Part shown: piece after piece, positions 51,846 to 60,926 of the stretch
Position numbering within the stretch: position 1 is the stretch's first letter
Layout of the letters: each line of letters opens with the position of its first letter
Source of the DNA: Halorussus caseinilyticus
GTDB lineage: Archaea; Halobacteriota; Halobacteria; Halobacteriales; Haladaptataceae
Assembly (NCBI RefSeq): GCF_029338395.1
Contig: NZ_CP119809.1
Location: forward strand, 1,488,001-1,552,000
DNA length: 64,000 nucleotides
Direction: 5' to 3'
Program-made: the position numbers and the translations under genes
Notes under the pieces: generated by a model
The model's database searches: none
The model's input: the letters and a program-made list of their open reading frames with translations, nothing else
Told to the model about the DNA's origin: nothing

Positions 51846-54764
51846 ATGAAAGAAGCAGATGTTCACTTCGAATTTTATCGACATCTTCAAAACGCAATTG
51901 AAGAGAAACCCAGTAGAGGGAACATCACGTATTCTAAAGTTAGTCCTGAACACGCTCGTAACATCAATGGACGTGCAGACATCGTGGTATTTAACCACGA
52001 TGATGACCCCATTTTCGTAATTGAAGCAAAACGACCCGGTGGTGGTCGAGACATCGACCCATTCGCACCAACGGTCATCCGCCAAGCATTCGCTTACGCA
52101 GGTAGCCTCGGGGCACCCTTCTTTTGCACTTACAACGGTAATCGACTCGTCATCTTCGACGCTTTCACGCAGGGCGTTCCTCTTCTCCAGCGAAGCACTA
52201 AATCGTATGAAATTAGCGACCCGAAAGAGTTCGCCAACACCCTTCTTGACGAAATTAGCCGATTGCATAGCGGTGACGAAAACTGGGACTCGCTGGACGC
52301 CTTCTTTATTGAACGGATTCGGGCCTTACATGGATTCATCGCGCCTGAACTCGAGAAAACTGTCAAGAGCGAACTCAAGAACGATGATGCATTCCGCGAA
52401 TCGTTCTTCGAGTGGACTGATAAACAAAACATAGATTGGGAAGAATCTTCGACTTCCCTCAAAGAAGAAATCATCGCCGAATTTAGCGAACAATCCGCTT
52501 ACCTTCTTATCAACAAAATTCTCTTTTACAAGATGTTAGAACAAAGCACGGCATATCATAGTGAAATTAACCCGCTTGACGTTCGTCGTTCGTATCTCCG
52601 TGAAGACCTAAACGAACACTTCGAGACCGTTGTTGACAATATCGACTTCGAAGCAGTCTACGAACACGATGACGTTTATAGCGAAATCCCACTTGGCCGT
52701 GTCGAAGAGCGAGTCCGAGATTTCATTCTCGAGCTCGAAGAACGGGACCTCACAGGGTTCAATTCCGACGTAATCGGTCGTATCTACGAACAGGTGATTC
52801 CGATTGACCGTCGTCGAGAATACGGCGAGTATTATACACCACCTGCAGTCACTGACCTCATTACTCGCCTCACTATCAATTCTGGCTCGGATGACATACT
52901 CGACCCAGCATGTGGGTCCGGTGGATTCCTTATCTCTGCCTACGACCGACTTAAGTCCCAACTCGCCGAACCAGCGGGAAGCCACGAACGCATCCTCAAT
53001 CAAATCTACGGCGTAGAAACCAACCGCTTTCCCGCCCATCTCTCTGCTATCAATCTTGCAATTCAAGACCTCGATTCCTACACTGAAGACGTTAACATCA
53101 AGATACGGAACTTCTTCGACGTGAAAGGTTACACCGAGTTTGGTGGGGAATCAGCAGGAACGAGTGGTACCGAAAAGGAGGATGCGTACACCGACGACCA
53201 ACTCGGAGGATTTGACGCGATTATCGGCAACCCGCCATACATAAGACAGGAGATGATTTCTGACAAAGATACGGTCAGAGAGCATCTCGAAAACGGTGAT
53301 GTTGATGCGGGATACCTTTCGAAGCGTTCCGACATTTACTCTTACTTCGTCACACACGCAACTGAGTTCCTCGCAGATGGTGGGAAGCTGAGTTATATTA
53401 CGTCTGACCGTTGGCTTGACACCAACTACGGAGCGGACCTACAACAGTTCATGCTTGAACAGTACTGTATAGATGCCGTCATCCGATTTGACCGGCAAGC
53501 GTTTGACGATGCACTCGTTGGTTCTACGATTTTCGTTCTTACTAAGGAACCCAATTCGGAACTCCGTGACGAGAACGTTACCAAGTTCCTTCGTGTTCGG
53601 CGTGGGATGGATGTCGAAGAAATTGCAGGTCTCGTAGAAGAAGAGTGGGACGCGAATCAGTTGGTAAAGAACGAACAGTATCGCTTAGTGACACAGCCAC
53701 AACACGCACTTAAAAACCAAGATAAGTGGAACCGGTATTTCATCGCCCCCACACTTTACTTCGAACTGGAAAAGACTCCCAATACAACCCGACTCGGGGA
53801 AGTCGCAGACCTCAGTTACGGTATCAAAAGCGGTGCTAACAAGTTCTTTATCGGCCGGACCGAAGAGATGAACGACCTCGGTCTCGAACCGTACACCCGC
53901 CCACTACTGAAAGCGAGCGGACAGGTTCGACAAGTTTCGTTCGAAGGTGAACAGGCCAAAGAGTGGGTGATTCTCGACATTCACGACCTCGTTGAGAAAG
54001 CCCGGAAGGAGTCGGACAACTTTATGAACGACGACCCGGCAGAGCGAGTAAAGAACTGGTTCGAAGAAAACGGCTATGAGTTACTTCACGAGTACATCGT
54101 GTGGGGTGAGCAACAAGGGTACGATACGAACGCAACTTGCGAACGACGAGACATTTGGTACGACCTCGGTGAGATGGATGTCGCGCCGATGCTCATCCCT
54201 CGATTTGCGTGGCGAGAAAACGTCGTTCTCTGGAACACTGAAGATGGTGTCGGTACGACCCAGTTCTACAATATCGAACCGAACAGCACAGCAGATTATC
54301 GCTTGCTATGTGCGTGCTTGAATTCCCGTCTTGCGTGGCTCTCACGGGAAATCGAAGGAAGGCAAGCAGGTGGGCAAGGAATGACTCGCTCAGAAGTCAA
54401 AGTATACGAGGCCAACTCGATTCTACTCCCAAAAATATCTGAAATTAGTCAAAGTAAGCGAGACGCAATTCTCGATGCCTTCGAGGAACTACTAAAGGCC
54501 GAGAAAGAACTCGGCGGAGAGACTGATTCAGAAAAGCTCGAAGCAGAACGGGATGTACTAGATAAAGCGGTCATGACCGCAATTGGGTTCGAAGGACGAG
54601 TCAAGGAATTAAAAAGAGCAGTCGAGGCGTTAGTCGAACTGCGTGAGCGCGAGGCAGGTGACGAAACAGAGGTTCTCGTCGAGGACACTACTAGCGAAAC
54701 CGAAGTTATCGACCTTGCAGGTGTCTCCGAAATGCATGAGAGTACGACGTTAGAGGATTTCTGA
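51846..54764 (+). CDS. Type IIG-like restriction-modification enzyme, AT-rich and solitary
   Basis: A 972-residue fusion. Residues ~1-110 form a PD-(D/E)xK nuclease/HSDR-N-like domain with Asp45 and Glu60-x-Lys62 (IFVIEAKRPGG). The N6-adenine methyltransferase core has DPACGSGGF (motif I, Asp353) and NPPY (motif IV, Asn462). A long C-terminus (~650-900) with a helical PKISEISQSKRDAILDAFEELLKAEKEL segment looks like target recognition and coiled regions. One chain would thus cut and methylate DNA. No partner gene. Its codon use and base composition are clearly more AT-rich than neighbours, suggesting transfer. Start: ATG 51846; a TTG two codons upstream is weaker. Confidence 0.85.
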   Translation: MKEADVHFEFYRHLQNAIEEKPSRGNITYSKVSPEHARNINGRADIVVFNHDDDPIFVIEAKRPGGGRDIDPFAPTVIRQAFAYAGSLGAPFFCTYNGNRLVIFDAFTQGVPLLQRSTKSYEISDPKEFANTLLDEISRLHSGDENWDSLDAFFIERIRALHGFIAPELEKTVKSELKNDDAFRESFFEWTDKQNIDWEESSTSLKEEIIAEFSEQSAYLLINKILFYKMLEQSTAYHSEINPLDVRRSYLREDLNEHFETVVDNIDFEAVYEHDDVYSEIPLGRVEERVRDFILELEERDLTGFNSDVIGRIYEQVIPIDRRREYGEYYTPPAVTDLITRLTINSGSDDILDPACGSGGFLISAYDRLKSQLAEPAGSHERILNQIYGVETNRFPAHLSAINLAIQDLDSYTEDVNIKIRNFFDVKGYTEFGGESAGTSGTEKEDAYTDDQLGGFDAIIGNPPYIRQEMISDKDTVREHLENGDVDAGYLSKRSDIYSYFVTHATEFLADGGKLSYITSDRWLDTNYGADLQQFMLEQYCIDAVIRFDRQAFDDALVGSTIFVLTKEPNSELRDENVTKFLRVRRGMDVEEIAGLVEEEWDANQLVKNEQYRLVTQPQHALKNQDKWNRYFIAPTLYFELEKTPNTTRLGEVADLSYGIKSGANKFFIGRTEEMNDLGLEPYTRPLLKASGQVRQVSFEGEQAKEWVILDIHDLVEKARKESDNFMNDDPAERVKNWFEENGYELLHEYIVWGEQQGYDTNATCERRDIWYDLGEMDVAPMLIPRFAWRENVVLWNTEDGVGTTQFYNIEPNSTADYRLLCACLNSRLAWLSREIEGRQAGGQGMTRSEVKVYEANSILLPKISEISQSKRDAILDAFEELLKAEKELGGETDSEKLEAERDVLDKAVMTAIGFEGRVKELKRAVEALVELREREAGDETEVLVEDTTSETEVIDLAGVSEMHESTTLEDF

Positions 54765-57665: not shown

Positions 57666-58367
57666 ATGGCTACAGAAACCAAATCCCGAAACCTCGGTCG
57701 CAGACCCGCAAGCCAGACCATCTTCGGCGCGCTCGTCGTTCTCATCGGCGTCTTGCTCCTGTTGGACACGACCGGCGTGTTCGACACCGGCGCTCTGCTG
57801 ACCTACGTCCCGTCGCTGTTCGTTCTCGTCGCGCTGTACGCGATGGTCGCCAGCGAGTTCCGGAACGTCGCCGGACCGCTCGTCGTCGCCCTGCTCGCGG
57901 GCGGGTCCCAACTCGTCGCGCTCGGCGTCGTCGAGTTCGCGGACCTCGCCCCGCTCTGGCCGGTGTTCGTCATCGCGTTCGGTCTCTCGGTCGTGCTGGC
58001 GCGCTACCGCGCTCGCGCCCACACGGTCCCCGACGACTACGTGTCGGCGCTGGCGCTCTTCGGCGGGAGCGAGAAGCGTTCGACCTCGAAATCCTTCGCG
58101 GGGGCCGACCTCACCGCCCTCTTCGGCGGCGCGGAACTCGACCTGCGTGACACCGAACTCACCGACAGACCGGCGCAGGTGTCGGCGACGGCCCTCTTCG
58201 GCGGCATCGACGTGGTGGTGCCCCGCGACTGGAACGTCCGGGTGGACGTGCTTCCGGTCTTCGGCGCGGCCGAGGACGACCGACCCCGCCGCGAGGAGGA
58301 GAGCGAGGACGTGGACCTCGTGGTGACGGGGTTCGTCGCCTTCGGCGGAATCAGCGTGACGGACTGA
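57666..58367 (+). CDS. LiaF-like membrane protein
   Basis: A 233-residue protein. About four N-terminal membrane helices (~residues 18-38, 45-65, 68-90, 92-112) are followed by a C-terminal soluble domain with three similar turns: ALFGGSEKRS, ALFGGAELDL and ALFGGIDVVVPRDW. This is the LiaF/cell-wall-active antibiotic response (DUF2154) repeat pattern. In bacteria LiaF regulates a cell-envelope stress kinase; the archaeal role is not known. An AT-rich GGTTATATCTC promoter lies about 25-30 bases upstream. Confidence 0.8.
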   Translation: MATETKSRNLGRRPASQTIFGALVVLIGVLLLLDTTGVFDTGALLTYVPSLFVLVALYAMVASEFRNVAGPLVVALLAGGSQLVALGVVEFADLAPLWPVFVIAFGLSVVLARYRARAHTVPDDYVSALALFGGSEKRSTSKSFAGADLTALFGGAELDLRDTELTDRPAQVSATALFGGIDVVVPRDWNVRVDVLPVFGAAEDDRPRREEESEDVDLVVTGFVAFGGISVTD

Positions 58368-58430
58368 TTCCCCGCGAAGTCCGAGGGAAAGTCTACGTTT
58401 TACCCGTGTCAACTCATTTATAACTGTTCC

Positions 58431-58775
58431 TTAGGGGCTATCACCATCTCGTTGGTCCCACTCGTCGTCTTTTTCGCTGTTAATTCGGGGCAAATCTCGT
58501 GGCTGGATGGAGTCACGATTCTGCGTCAAAGCGCGTTTCCGTGCGGTGCTAACCATACCAATAACTTCTTCATTTAGTTCAGCAACAAACTCGTCTGTCG
58601 TTGCTACATCCTCAAGTAAGTCTTCTAAAGCACTTGTATCAATCACTTGTTGGTCCACTCTGTTTTCGTCTACTTGATTGCCCACCCCGATTTCACCATT
58701 TCCGTCATCTTGCTCGTCATCTACGATATCTTCGTCAAGTTGGTCCCAGTCATCGTCATCCCCATTATTATTCAT
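58431..58775 (-). CDS. Small acidic protein with histone-fold-like C-terminus
   Basis: A 114-residue protein. Residues 1-45 are very acidic and Asn-rich. Residues ~48-98 read as a short helix (SALEDLLEDVA), a long helix (DEFVAELNEEVIGMVSTARK) and then RDSIQPRDL; the R-x-[ST]-[IV]-x-x-x-D-[LI] end (Arg87, Ser89, Asp94) is the signature of the histone-fold second loop and third helix. This is an inference from the pattern, not a known annotation. The frame is AT-rich relative to neighbours and lies 84 bases after the membrane protein on the same strand. ATG 58775 chosen over TTG 58778. Confidence 0.6.
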   Translation of the reverse strand: MNNNGDDDDWDQLDEDIVDDEQDDGNGEIGVGNQVDENRVDQQVIDTSALEDLLEDVATTDEFVAELNEEVIGMVSTARKRALTQNRDSIQPRDLPRINSEKDDEWDQRDGDSP

Positions 58776-58858
58776 CAATGTTTGTCTTATAGGTCGGGAT
58801 ACTTGCTCGTTTTTGCTGTTTGACTATATTTTGGGAGCAGACGTGATATCTAGAAACA

Positions 58859-59449
58859 CTAAAAGAATTTTTTGTCCCTCCGACTTTCTTGCAAAAATTT
58901 GGTTCTTTCACGGCCGTAGTATGATAAGACGGGTATAATAATGATACTCACTATATCGAGAATAGGATACGTATCAATTTTCGTAATGGCTGGAAATGCC
59001 GAGGTAGCAAAGAATAACAGCCCGGCGAAGGCTGCCCATATAGATCTATTTAAGTTCTTAGTCATATCTTTCTTTACTTTATTATTCCGGTCAATCCACT
59101 TTTCATATTTCAACGCTAGTTTATTGTAGTACGCTTTAGATCCCATCTCCAATGCTTCTTTCGCACCTTTTGGATTTAGGCCAATATATCTGTCATTAGA
59201 TGTTAATGTCTGCGCGCAGTAATAAATCGAGACGATAATGGAGATAATTCCACTAAATATTAACAACGTAGCTTGCTGTGAGCCTGCGAGTCCGGTTACT
59301 AACCCTGTAAGCACGAGATCTGCGGAAAGAATTGTTGCCGCCCGGTCGCGAATATGATTCCGACTATTTAGATTATGGGTAAACGTATTGTTAAGTTCGT
59401 TTCTTATCGATTCTGCTTTCTCCGGGTTATGGCCTTCATCCTCCCTCAT
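58859..59449 (-). CDS. Four-helix membrane protein, SLATT/Pycsar-effector-like
   Basis: A 196-residue protein: hydrophilic start, RDRAATILSADLVLTGLVTGLAG (helix 1, ~38-55), helix 2 (~60-80), a ~50-residue charged middle (KGAKEALEMGSKAYYNKLALKYEKWIDRNNK), then helices at ~136-155 and ~163-178. This layout (two helices, cytosolic coiled segment, two helices) resembles SLATT and Pycsar-type (PycTM) membrane effectors, which form pores in defence systems. No nucleotide cyclase is seen nearby, so the link is speculative. AT-rich, foreign-looking. ATG 59449; a TTG at 59479 is less likely. Confidence 0.6.
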   Translation of the reverse strand: MREDEGHNPEKAESIRNELNNTFTHNLNSRNHIRDRAATILSADLVLTGLVTGLAGSQQATLLIFSGIISIIVSIYYCAQTLTSNDRYIGLNPKGAKEALEMGSKAYYNKLALKYEKWIDRNNKVKKDMTKNLNRSIWAAFAGLLFFATSAFPAITKIDTYPILDIVSIIIIPVLSYYGRERTKFLQESRRDKKFF

Positions 59450-59479
59450 TGAGCCTTGAAATACCAGACCTATCCACAA

Positions 59480-59630
59480 AGGTTGTTCGCTTTACAGCTC
59501 TATTTGCCAGAATCTATAAACTTCTCTAACACAGGATCGGAATGAAGAGTTATTTAAATGTTTTTTTTTGATATTGAATTTCTTAGAATTAGGTGATTTA
59601 AAGGCCAGCTGAGACCTAAGATATCGTCGA
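59480..59630. other. AT-rich gene-free stretch at islet edge
   Basis: The sequence between the islet and paaK has oligo-T and oligo-A runs (for example a T9 run near 59562) and no plausible open frame. It may carry the islet promoter and the paaK terminator. The abrupt change in base composition at about 59625 marks the islet boundary. Confidence 0.5.
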
Positions 59631-60926
59631 TTACTCCTCGTCGCGGTGGTCGAACACGCGCTTGACCTTCCCCGTCTCGGTCCGGTCCACGACGCCGGGA
59701 CCGACGACTTCGATTTCGTCGGGTTTGACTTCCAGCGTCTCCTCCAGTTCGTTCCGGATGTCACGCTCCAGTTCCTCGTGAGTGCCCTCGTAATCCTCGG
59801 TGTACTCGACGGTGAGTTCCATCGTGTCGAGGTTGCCCTTCCGGTAGAGGTCGATGCGGTAGTGGGGCGCGACGTGTTCGATGTCCACCATGACCTCCTC
59901 GATTTGGCTCGGGTAGACGTTGACCCCGCGGACGATGATGAGGTCGTCGGTCCGGCCGGTCACGTTGTCCATCCGGACGACGGTCCGCCCGCAGTCGCAC
60001 TCGTCGTAGGTCAGCGAAGTCATGTCGCCGGTCCGGTACCGGAGGACCGGCAGGGCCTGCTTGGTCAGCGAGGTGACGACGAGTTCGCCCTCCTCGCCCT
60101 CGGGAAGGGGTTCGCCGGTCTGGGGGTCCACGACTTCGGGGTAGAAGTGGTCCTCCCAGACGTGGAGTCCGTTCTGGACCTCCTCGCACTCGATGGAGAC
60201 GCCCGGCCCGATGATTTCCGAGAGACCGTACACGTCCACGGCGGTCACGTCGAGTGCTTCCTCGATTTCCTCGCGCATGGGGTCGGTGAACGGTTCCGCG
60301 CCGATGACGACCGTCGAGAGCGGGAGTTCCTTCGGGTCGATACCGCGCTCCTCGGCGGCCTCCGCGAGGTAGAGGCAGTAGGAGGGCGTACACGACAGCA
60401 CGTCGCTTTCGAGGTCCTGTAGCATGTCCAACTGCCGGGCGGTGTTGCCCCCGCCGGTCGGGATGACGCAGGCCCCCAACTCCTCGACGCCGTCGTGGAA
60501 TCCGAGACCCCCGGTGAACAGGCCGTAGCCGTATGCGTTCTGGACGACGTGTTCGGGCCGAACGCCCGCGGCGTACAGCGACCGGGCCATGACTTCGCGC
60601 CACACGCCGAGGTCCTCGTCGGTGTAGCTCACGATTTTGGGCTTGCCCGTCGTCCCCGAGGAAGCGTGAATCCGGCACACCTCGTCGTGTTCGACCGCGA
60701 ACAGGCCGTCCGGGTACTCGTCGCGGAAGTCCTCCTTCGTCGTGAACGGAAGCTTCGACACGTCCTCGACCGATTCGATGTCCTCTGGCGCGACCCCCGC
60801 CTCGTCCAGTGCGTCGCGGTAGAAATCGACGTTCTCGTAGGCGTACTCGACGGTCTCGGCGAGTCGCTCGTCCTGCAACTCGCGGAGTTCCTCACGCGGG
60901 GCGGTCTCGATGTCGCTGTAGACCAT
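59631..60926 (-). CDS. paaK: Phenylacetate--CoA ligase
   Basis: A 431-residue adenylate-forming ligase: SSGTTGKPKIVSYTDEDL (A3), YGLSEIIGPGVSIEC (A5), LRYRTGDM (A7) and the C-terminal RTDDLIIVRGVNVYPSQIEEV (A8) are in the PaaK pattern, with the substrate-specific N-terminal part FYRDALDEAGV. It activates phenylacetate to phenylacetyl-CoA for PaaABCD about 17 kb away. It has its own promoter with the shared box; the 461 bases upstream contain R2 copy 2. The ends are complete. Confidence 0.93.
   Translation of the reverse strand: MVYSDIETAPREELRELQDERLAETVEYAYENVDFYRDALDEAGVAPEDIESVEDVSKLPFTTKEDFRDEYPDGLFAVEHDEVCRIHASSGTTGKPKIVSYTDEDLGVWREVMARSLYAAGVRPEHVVQNAYGYGLFTGGLGFHDGVEELGACVIPTGGGNTARQLDMLQDLESDVLSCTPSYCLYLAEAAEERGIDPKELPLSTVVIGAEPFTDPMREEIEEALDVTAVDVYGLSEIIGPGVSIECEEVQNGLHVWEDHFYPEVVDPQTGEPLPEGEEGELVVTSLTKQALPVLRYRTGDMTSLTYDECDCGRTVVRMDNVTGRTDDLIIVRGVNVYPSQIEEVMVDIEHVAPHYRIDLYRKGNLDTMELTVEYTEDYEGTHEELERDIRNELEETLEVKPDEIEVVGPGVVDRTETGKVKRVFDHRDEE

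Follow-up and report, generated by a model that had tools for sequence, protein, structure and literature searches.

A membrane-protein gene next to an acidic histone-fold gene in an AT-rich islet of Halorussus caseinilyticus

The gene pair, its islet and its recurrence

The stretch of DNA that was analysed, 64,000 nt long and called the window below, comes from C1, a contig of 3.48 Mb in a genome of 4.39 Mb. Within it lie two small genes on the minus strand, the first coding for a membrane protein of 196 aa and the second for a histone-fold protein of 114 aa, with approximately 83 bp between them. The locus is laid out as follows.

57666..58367, plus strand: gene for a LiaF-like membrane protein (Pfam LiaF-TM, 1.5e-13), an ordinary flanking gene outside the pair
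58420..59632, no strand: AT-rich islet holding the pair, GC 0.408, flanked by convergent genes
58775 (ATG) to 58431 (stop), minus strand: histone-fold gene, second of the pair, 114 aa (ORF call)
59449 (ATG) to 58859 (stop), minus strand: membrane-protein gene, first of the pair, 196 aa (ORF call)
59631..60926, minus strand: gene for a phenylacetate-CoA-ligase-like AMP-binding enzyme (Pfam AMP-binding), an ordinary flanking gene that marks the apparent insertion site

Alternative in-frame TTG start codons occur 5' of both ORFs, at 59479 for the membrane protein and 58778 for the histone-fold protein; the ATG codons were taken as the probable true starts. A preliminary description of this DNA had reported two small same-strand ORFs about 84 bases apart in an AT-rich islet of approximately 1.2 kb, and both statements agree with what we found. 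The islet has a GC content of 0.408 compared to 0.647 for the window, with values of 0.40 for the membrane-protein gene and 0.465 for the histone-fold gene. The lowest 1-kb GC value of the window (0.415) falls inside the islet and the second lowest (0.480) overlaps it, whilst both flanking genes are GC-rich and ordinary. Apart from the pair, the islet has one minus-strand ORF of at least 50 aa, a short one at its edge (59492-59764) overlapping the ligase gene. The immediate neighbours of the pair are the LiaF-like and AMP-ligase genes, neither of them a cyclase or a known defence gene. Another AT-rich stretch of the window encodes a 974-aa restriction-modification-like protein with Eco57I and N6 methylase domains (51840-54764, plus strand), 3.7 kb from the pair with GC-rich genes in between. 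The arms of an inverted repeat (58716-58732 and 59618-59634) were considered as ends of a mobile element and rejected, one of them lying within the histone-fold gene.

Comparison with the same genus bears on how the pair came to be here. The ligase gene was present in 17 of 18 same-genus genomes (our own counted), and at 16 same-genus loci neither pair gene was found near it (tblastn, 1e-3, approximately 1.5 kb on each side). Three of these 16 loci (L109, L113 and L120) carried the LiaF-like gene on the same side of the ligase without the pair, the flanking genes being no more than 1.5 kb apart. The gap between them measured approximately 285 bp in L109; in L120 the match ends were less than 20 bp apart, and in L113, with a gap of approximately 1,050 bp, a further ORF was seen by eye between the two genes. 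At the remaining 13 the LiaF-like gene fell outside the fetched stretch of approximately 1.5 kb per side of the ligase. Because the same-genus ligase loci do not have the pair, three of them with the LiaF-like gene near the ligase, the pair appears to have been inserted into the genome of the window. The ligase-LiaF gaps of L109 (2794-3084) and L113 (2790-3836) share a GC-rich stretch with, by eye, the look of an inverted repeat and the core GACGACCACGG; an exact search showed this core to be absent from the window.

Among 391 haloarchaeal genomes, the best non-self match to the membrane protein was found in Haloarculaceae archaeon H-GB1-1 (JARUKX010000015.1; 28 % identity, 1.4e-13). The next gene there, on the same strand and 21 bp 3' of the membrane-protein gene, encodes a face-to-face-type histone of 73 aa with an 18-residue N-terminal extension, and an Orc1/Cdc6 gene lies upstream of this second pair. 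The linkage that the preliminary description had proposed to look for elsewhere is thus repeated, with its gene order kept, in a single further genome, but it is rare: a histone gene stood near the membrane-protein gene (up to 1.5 kb per side) in one of 95 distinct other-genome loci, that of H-GB1-1. These 95 loci derive from 118 fetched membrane-gene loci after overlaps were merged and a copy from our own genome was dropped; the count covers the fetched loci, a few of which have shorter flanks at contig ends. In the reverse direction, a related membrane-protein gene was found near one of 29 non-own histone loci. There, on an 8-kb contig (L029:27-1659), an ordinary histone gene stands head-to-head with a gene for a 263-aa protein with no Pfam match, followed by the related membrane-protein gene. 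We did not accept this locus as a further pair, its arrangement being different and a rough estimate giving about 0.1 chance cases among 29 loci. The LiaF-like gene was likewise rejected as a part of the system, being downstream and convergent in the window, upstream beyond the Orc1/Cdc6 gene in H-GB1-1, and near the ligase without the pair in three same-genus relatives.

Searches of mobile elements returned little. At E<=0.1 the membrane protein matched nothing in phage or plasmid collections, the H-GB1-1 histone matched no phage, neither window protein had a match in PHROGs, and the window histone gave only weak matches to four haloarchaeal plasmids. Pattern scans of viral contigs with either protein or with a two-row membrane-protein profile found no relative; a pattern scan of genome contigs with the window sequence also found none, and the two-row profile recovered H-GB1-1 as the only relative there.

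The histone-fold protein

The 114-aa protein has a net charge of -27 and comprises three parts.

58647..58775, minus strand: acidic N-terminal tail, residues 1-43, net charge -16, probably disordered (mean pLDDT approximately 47 over residues 1-40)
58491..58646, minus strand: histone-fold domain, residues 44-95, with helices at 47-54, 61-84 and 92-94
58434..58490, minus strand: C-terminal tail, residues 96-114, net charge -4, absent from the aligned ordinary 55-aa relatives

The acidic N-terminus had been described before; so had the histone fold, which held up in our analysis. Searched as a single sequence, the protein had no match above cut-off in Pfam, PADLOC, NCBIfam or among PDB sequences, the sole histone hint being DUF1931 at 0.074. 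In contrast, a profile of 19 ordinary haloarchaeal face-to-face histones, built without the window or H-GB1-1 sequences, scored the protein at 31.8 bits, compared to 8.5 bits for the best of the shuffled controls (1,958 scored of 2,000 made). With the protein itself as query, matches at E<=0.01 were obtained in 369 of 391 genomes (our own counted), with 26-40 % identity among the non-self matches listed and 31-40 % identity to 17 haloarchaeal histone rows aligned outside the pair. At 29 other histone loci that we fetched, the match fell mostly within query residues 44-100, and a methionine stood at the start of the 55-aa protein in 27, with two loci having none. A 55-aa protein of this kind fits the description in PMC11390915 of the face-to-face histones that Halobacteria carry on chromosomes and plasmids. 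The genome of the window also encodes an ordinary copy (G000:C1:2819230-2819397), a possible partner of the window histone.

Structure prediction pointed the same way. AlphaFold2 modelled residues 47-94 as a short helix, a long helix and a very short helix of three residues, a result that does not contradict the histone-like fold expected beforehand for residues 48-98, with pLDDT 62.6 over the whole protein, approximately 82-90 over residues 61-90 and low-confidence tails. This model is not independent evidence, because it was built on an alignment with 18 relatives; likewise, 18 of the 19 rows were other histones in the alignment whose profile matched HTkC (9f2c) at 4.1e-12. The closest solved structures were the alpha3 histones HBb, HTkC and HLp (VIA Z 5.8 to 5.2 over 54-59 residues), with nucleosome histones trailing by less than one Z unit. 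Alpha3 histones also headed the Foldseek list with probabilities of 0.99-1.00 and a best E-value of 0.089, no match being returned at E<=0.001. Since that E-value is modest and the nucleosome histones follow within one Z unit, the structure lists speak more clearly for a histone fold than for this subtype.

We then compared the positions to which function has been ascribed in face-to-face histones. PMC11390915 proposes DNA contact for K11 and neighbouring lysines, and places the tetramer interface at R41 and N45, with a salt bridge between R41 and the carboxyl end of residue 55. By alignment (55-aa numbering first), K7, K11 and K48 correspond to T47, E51 and D88 in the window histone, whilst R41 (R81), R47 (R87) and D54 (D94) are retained. 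Of the RxTxxxxD motif, the window histone has the arginine (R87) and the aspartate (D94), with S89 in place of the threonine (T49). Of the tetramer features, R81 is kept, N45 is replaced by Q85, and the chain runs on for 19 residues past the equivalent of residue 55. The short alpha3 of only 3-4 residues is found in the window histone (helix 92-94). The protein thus resembles face-to-face histones such as Haloferax volcanii HVO_0196 (D4GZE0) and Thermococcus kodakarensis HTkC (PDB 9F2C) in an alpha3 cut to a few residues and in the equivalents of R41, R47 and D54, but it adds a 43-aa acidic N-terminal tail and a 19-aa C-terminal tail, whereas the ordinary proteins end at residue 55. Because N45 is changed and the chain extends by 19 residues, we refer to it as an alpha3-type histone-fold protein and not as a face-to-face histone. 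Its gene stands in a pair, unlike those of alpha3 histones, which PMC11390915 describes as single-gene operons.

The earlier suggestion of a DNA-binding partner is weakened by these replacements, as T47 and E51 stand where ordinary relatives have lysines in alpha1, and D88 where they have one in the loop. Judged from its residues, the window histone would form a dimer that probably lacks DNA binding by the usual face. The H-GB1-1 histone, by comparison, keeps 9 of 9 checked positions, both DNA-contacting and tetrameric, and so a loss of DNA binding fails to cover both histones. The same observations bear on whether the two genes form a toxin-antitoxin-like pair, in which the histone would bind both the DNA of the operon and a membrane toxin and regulate its own expression, as type II antitoxins do. 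Two small co-directional genes within an AT-rich islet would suit such a pair, as would the DNA-contacting residues retained in H-GB1-1. Against this, the window histone is without the DNA-contacting lysines, and the putative antitoxin gene stands second here, whereas in type II pairs it usually comes first. We consider this explanation unlikely.

Histone domains of the same type were also seen C-terminal to long acidic N-terminal parts at two other loci (L012:1198-1710 and L015:1330-1785, both plus strand), in surroundings that we take to resemble a gas-vesicle gene cluster.

The membrane protein and its family

The AlphaFold2 model of the 196-aa protein (pLDDT 87.4) contains helices at residues 9-54, 62-83, 93-101, 104-156 and 162-193, and four hydrophobic cores were identified at 37-55, 60-78, 137-155 and 158-176 around a charged middle. 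Together these outline two hairpins.

59201..59425, minus strand: helical hairpin 1, residues 9-83, a long helix starting outside the membrane followed by membrane helix 2 (AlphaFold2, hydrophobic cores)
58871..59140, minus strand: helical hairpin 2, residues 104-193, a long charged helix that leads into membrane helix 3 and is followed by membrane helix 4 (AlphaFold2, hydrophobic cores)

The preliminary description had likened this plan to SLATT and Pycsar-type effectors, and two helical hairpins flanking a charged segment are indeed shared with PycTM (Pfam PF18967, PADLOC PDLC02364) and SLATT proteins. SLATT has been predicted to be a nucleotide-responsive pore-forming effector, according to PMC7159879. 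The window protein alone gave nothing above cut-off in Pfam, PADLOC, NCBIfam or PDB sequences; no curated family, housekeeping families included, matched it above cut-off. It is a member of a large haloarchaeal family. Matches at E<=1e-3 were found in 41 of 391 haloarchaeal genomes (our own counted), and searches with the two-row profile at cut-offs of E<=1e-5 or 1e-6 gave matches in 80 (19+9+29+13+6+4) of 531 genomes (146+28+125+170+26+36), our own and H-GB1-1 included. A second gene of the family is present in the genome of the window itself (G000:C1:3121340-3121621), seemingly split into two overlapping frames.

The relation to PycTM emerged at the level of the family. An alignment of 31 family members, drawn from 51 candidate rows with omissions chosen by eye, matched six haloarchaeal PycTM proteins in hhalign with 88 % probability (E 2.8e-6), compared to 0.3 % for the same rows against a LiaF alignment as control. 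For the 11-member clade that contains the window protein the values were only 27 % and E 6.6e-4, with the LiaF control at 0.4 %. One PADLOC PycTM model was matched at E<=0.01 by 8 of the 31 members (best 1.5e-6), the window protein not among them, and PycTM was the only name returned for the H-GB1-1 membrane protein in PADLOC at E<=1 (2.4e-4 and 0.07). These PADLOC matches are only suggestive, because unrelated Pfam membrane families gave similar E-values with the same 31 members, namely DUF2207_C in six (best 3.1e-5) and tetraspanin at 1.2e-4. These profile comparisons make the family a probable distant relative of PycTM/SLATT. The effector-like plan thus stands as regards the hairpins and the distant family relation, but the window sequence by itself fits no PycTM or SLATT model.

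Further differences from PycTM proteins were apparent. In a phylogenetic tree that included three of the six haloarchaeal PycTM proteins, these formed a separate clade with support of 100/100. A search of 293 genomes at E<=1e-4 gave haloarchaeal PycTM genes in six (L190-L195), whilst the genome of the window had no PycTM-model match at that threshold. Five of the six loci (L190, L191, L193, L194 and L195, not L192) have an upstream ORF that we take, by eye, to resemble a cyclase. Pycsar differs from the present pair in this respect, as the latter has no adjoining nucleotide cyclase and the partner is a histone-fold protein.

The predicted fold of the membrane protein also aligned with that of Orai (CRAC) channels, which occupied the top six rows of the structure list with Z 10.3-12.0 and rmsd 4.3-6.4 over 125-139 residues. 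Identity was 4-7 %, however, and Foldseek placed Orai at rank 38 with an E-value of 1.7. We did not adopt this resemblance as an identity and regard it as a lead only, since Z-values under approximately 13 can reflect a common helical arrangement.

Possible joint function of the two proteins

Within a set of 35, the membrane proteins of the window and H-GB1-1 were each other's best hits; the tree placed them together as sisters, though with weak support (82/50). Between the two histone domains, 13 of 52 residues (25 %) are identical, compared to 21 of 52 (40 %) between the window histone and an ordinary copy and 34 of 52 between the H-GB1-1 histone and that same ordinary copy. Simple co-inheritance of the pair is therefore disfavoured; either the partner has been recruited twice, or one of the two has been replaced, or one linkage has arisen by chance.

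We tentatively explain the pair as a membrane-effector module that has been acquired and in which a histone-fold partner exerts control through contact between the two proteins. A two-gene module would have been acquired horizontally, its first gene encoding a four-helix effector of the PycTM/SLATT kind that would open or disturb the membrane when released or triggered. The histone-fold domain of the second protein would dimerise, probably no longer binding DNA in the usual way, and would control the membrane protein by protein contacts, either by silencing it or by triggering it when the state of the partner changes. One possible trigger would be pairing of the window histone with the face-to-face histone of the cell, or its displacement from it. 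That the genes are co-transcribed, that the histone dimerises, no longer binds DNA and touches the membrane protein, that the membrane is damaged, and that any of this serves defence are inferences: distant family similarity suggests the effector role, gene linkage the control role, and residue changes in one of two histones the lack of DNA binding. The defence role put forward in the preliminary description does not follow from these results. The N-terminal tails carried by both pair histones favour the module, whilst the fact that the pair is known in two genomes only counts against it. Because the H-GB1-1 histone keeps all nine positions, the two pairs need not work alike. Charge complementarity (membrane protein +8, histone -27) was rejected as evidence of contact, as it is not conserved (-2 and -6 for the H-GB1-1 proteins).

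The main rival is that the genes are chance neighbours, an orphan membrane-protein gene and a histone gene of plasmid type, either decaying or free-running, joined by insertion without joint function, with H-GB1-1 a coincidence. We hold this to be doubtful, though a serious contender. The linkage was seen in just one of the 95 other loci, for which a rough calculation (approximately 2 histones per 4,000 genes) gives a chance expectation of approximately 0.05. Extra histone copies occur on plasmids in Halobacteria (PMC11390915), and the two pair histones do not group together by identity. The linked locus is, however, the best non-self match of 391 genomes, with the histone gene adjacent and in the same strand and order, and for that single locus the chance was put at approximately 7e-4 (inferred from 3 histones in roughly 4,300 genes). 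Coincidence would, moreover, have to supply N-terminal tails to both histones, which 27 of the 29 others need not have.

Two more specific roles were considered. In the first, which elaborates on the proposed effector module, a histone stripped of its usual DNA contacts would dimerise with the chromatin histone, sense in this way how the chromosome fares, for instance whether a virus has taken over or host chromatin is being degraded, and release the PycTM/SLATT-like effector; we think such histone gating improbable. In the second, the membrane protein would be a tether that recruits histone-bound DNA in a housekeeping or plasmid-segregation role. The co-occurrence of a histone with a membrane protein and the Orc1/Cdc6 gene upstream of the H-GB1-1 pair speak for a tether, but the DNA-contacting lysines are missing from the window histone, the pair is rare and looks inserted rather than core, and the family relation of the membrane protein is to effectors. 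A tether is accordingly very unlikely in our estimation.

A comparable arrangement is the RdgC-histone operon of Halobacteria and Bacillus, in which, as described in PMC11390915, a histone-fold gene conservedly shares an operon with a gene for a transmembrane protein. The histone gene comes first there, the RdgC-like gene follows and the transmembrane-protein gene is third, whereas in the window the membrane-protein gene precedes the histone gene and there is no RdgC-like gene. In that operon the transmembrane protein has a winged helix and other domains and the histone a long C-terminal helix, features absent from the window pair. None of the open-access papers listed in our literature searches described the pair; its members belong to known kinds (an alpha3 histone and a PycTM/SLATT-like membrane protein) in a combination not seen among them. 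Prokaryotic histones are usually regarded as DNA packers encoded in single-gene units. If the effector module is real, histones would have been recruited as protein-protein switches, perhaps in defence, and under histone gating a histone would be an immune sensor in Archaea.

The surroundings of related membrane-protein genes suggest that these often travel with a small partner, of which the histone domain is one version. In the clade of the window, six of the 11 membrane proteins are followed by a small acidic protein or tail. The partner charges are -27 in the window, -6 in H-GB1-1, -26 in L076, -19 in L168 and -14 in L170 (an overlapping ORF), and in L125 (1501-2568, plus strand) an acidic tail of approximately 135 residues (-19) extends the membrane protein in the same frame. 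Charge alone is weak evidence, because haloarchaeal proteins are generally acidic, and only the partners in the window and H-GB1-1 contain a histone domain, with none in the L125 tail. On another branch, small basic ORFs, marked by the motif [ST]NSPx[LY]GP, took this place behind the membrane-protein gene at 5 of 26 loci (L077, L079, L099, L127 and L172) in a survey of ORFs starting between -60 and +250 bp, one of the 26 being the second copy from our own genome. All of these small partners are predicted ORFs, not proven genes. The [ST]NSPx[LY]GP ORFs are 46-56 aa long and lie just downstream of the membrane-protein gene; a Pfam search with one of them gave no match. Some of the longer membrane proteins seem, by eye, to end in F-x-G-x-R-x-S-K-G.
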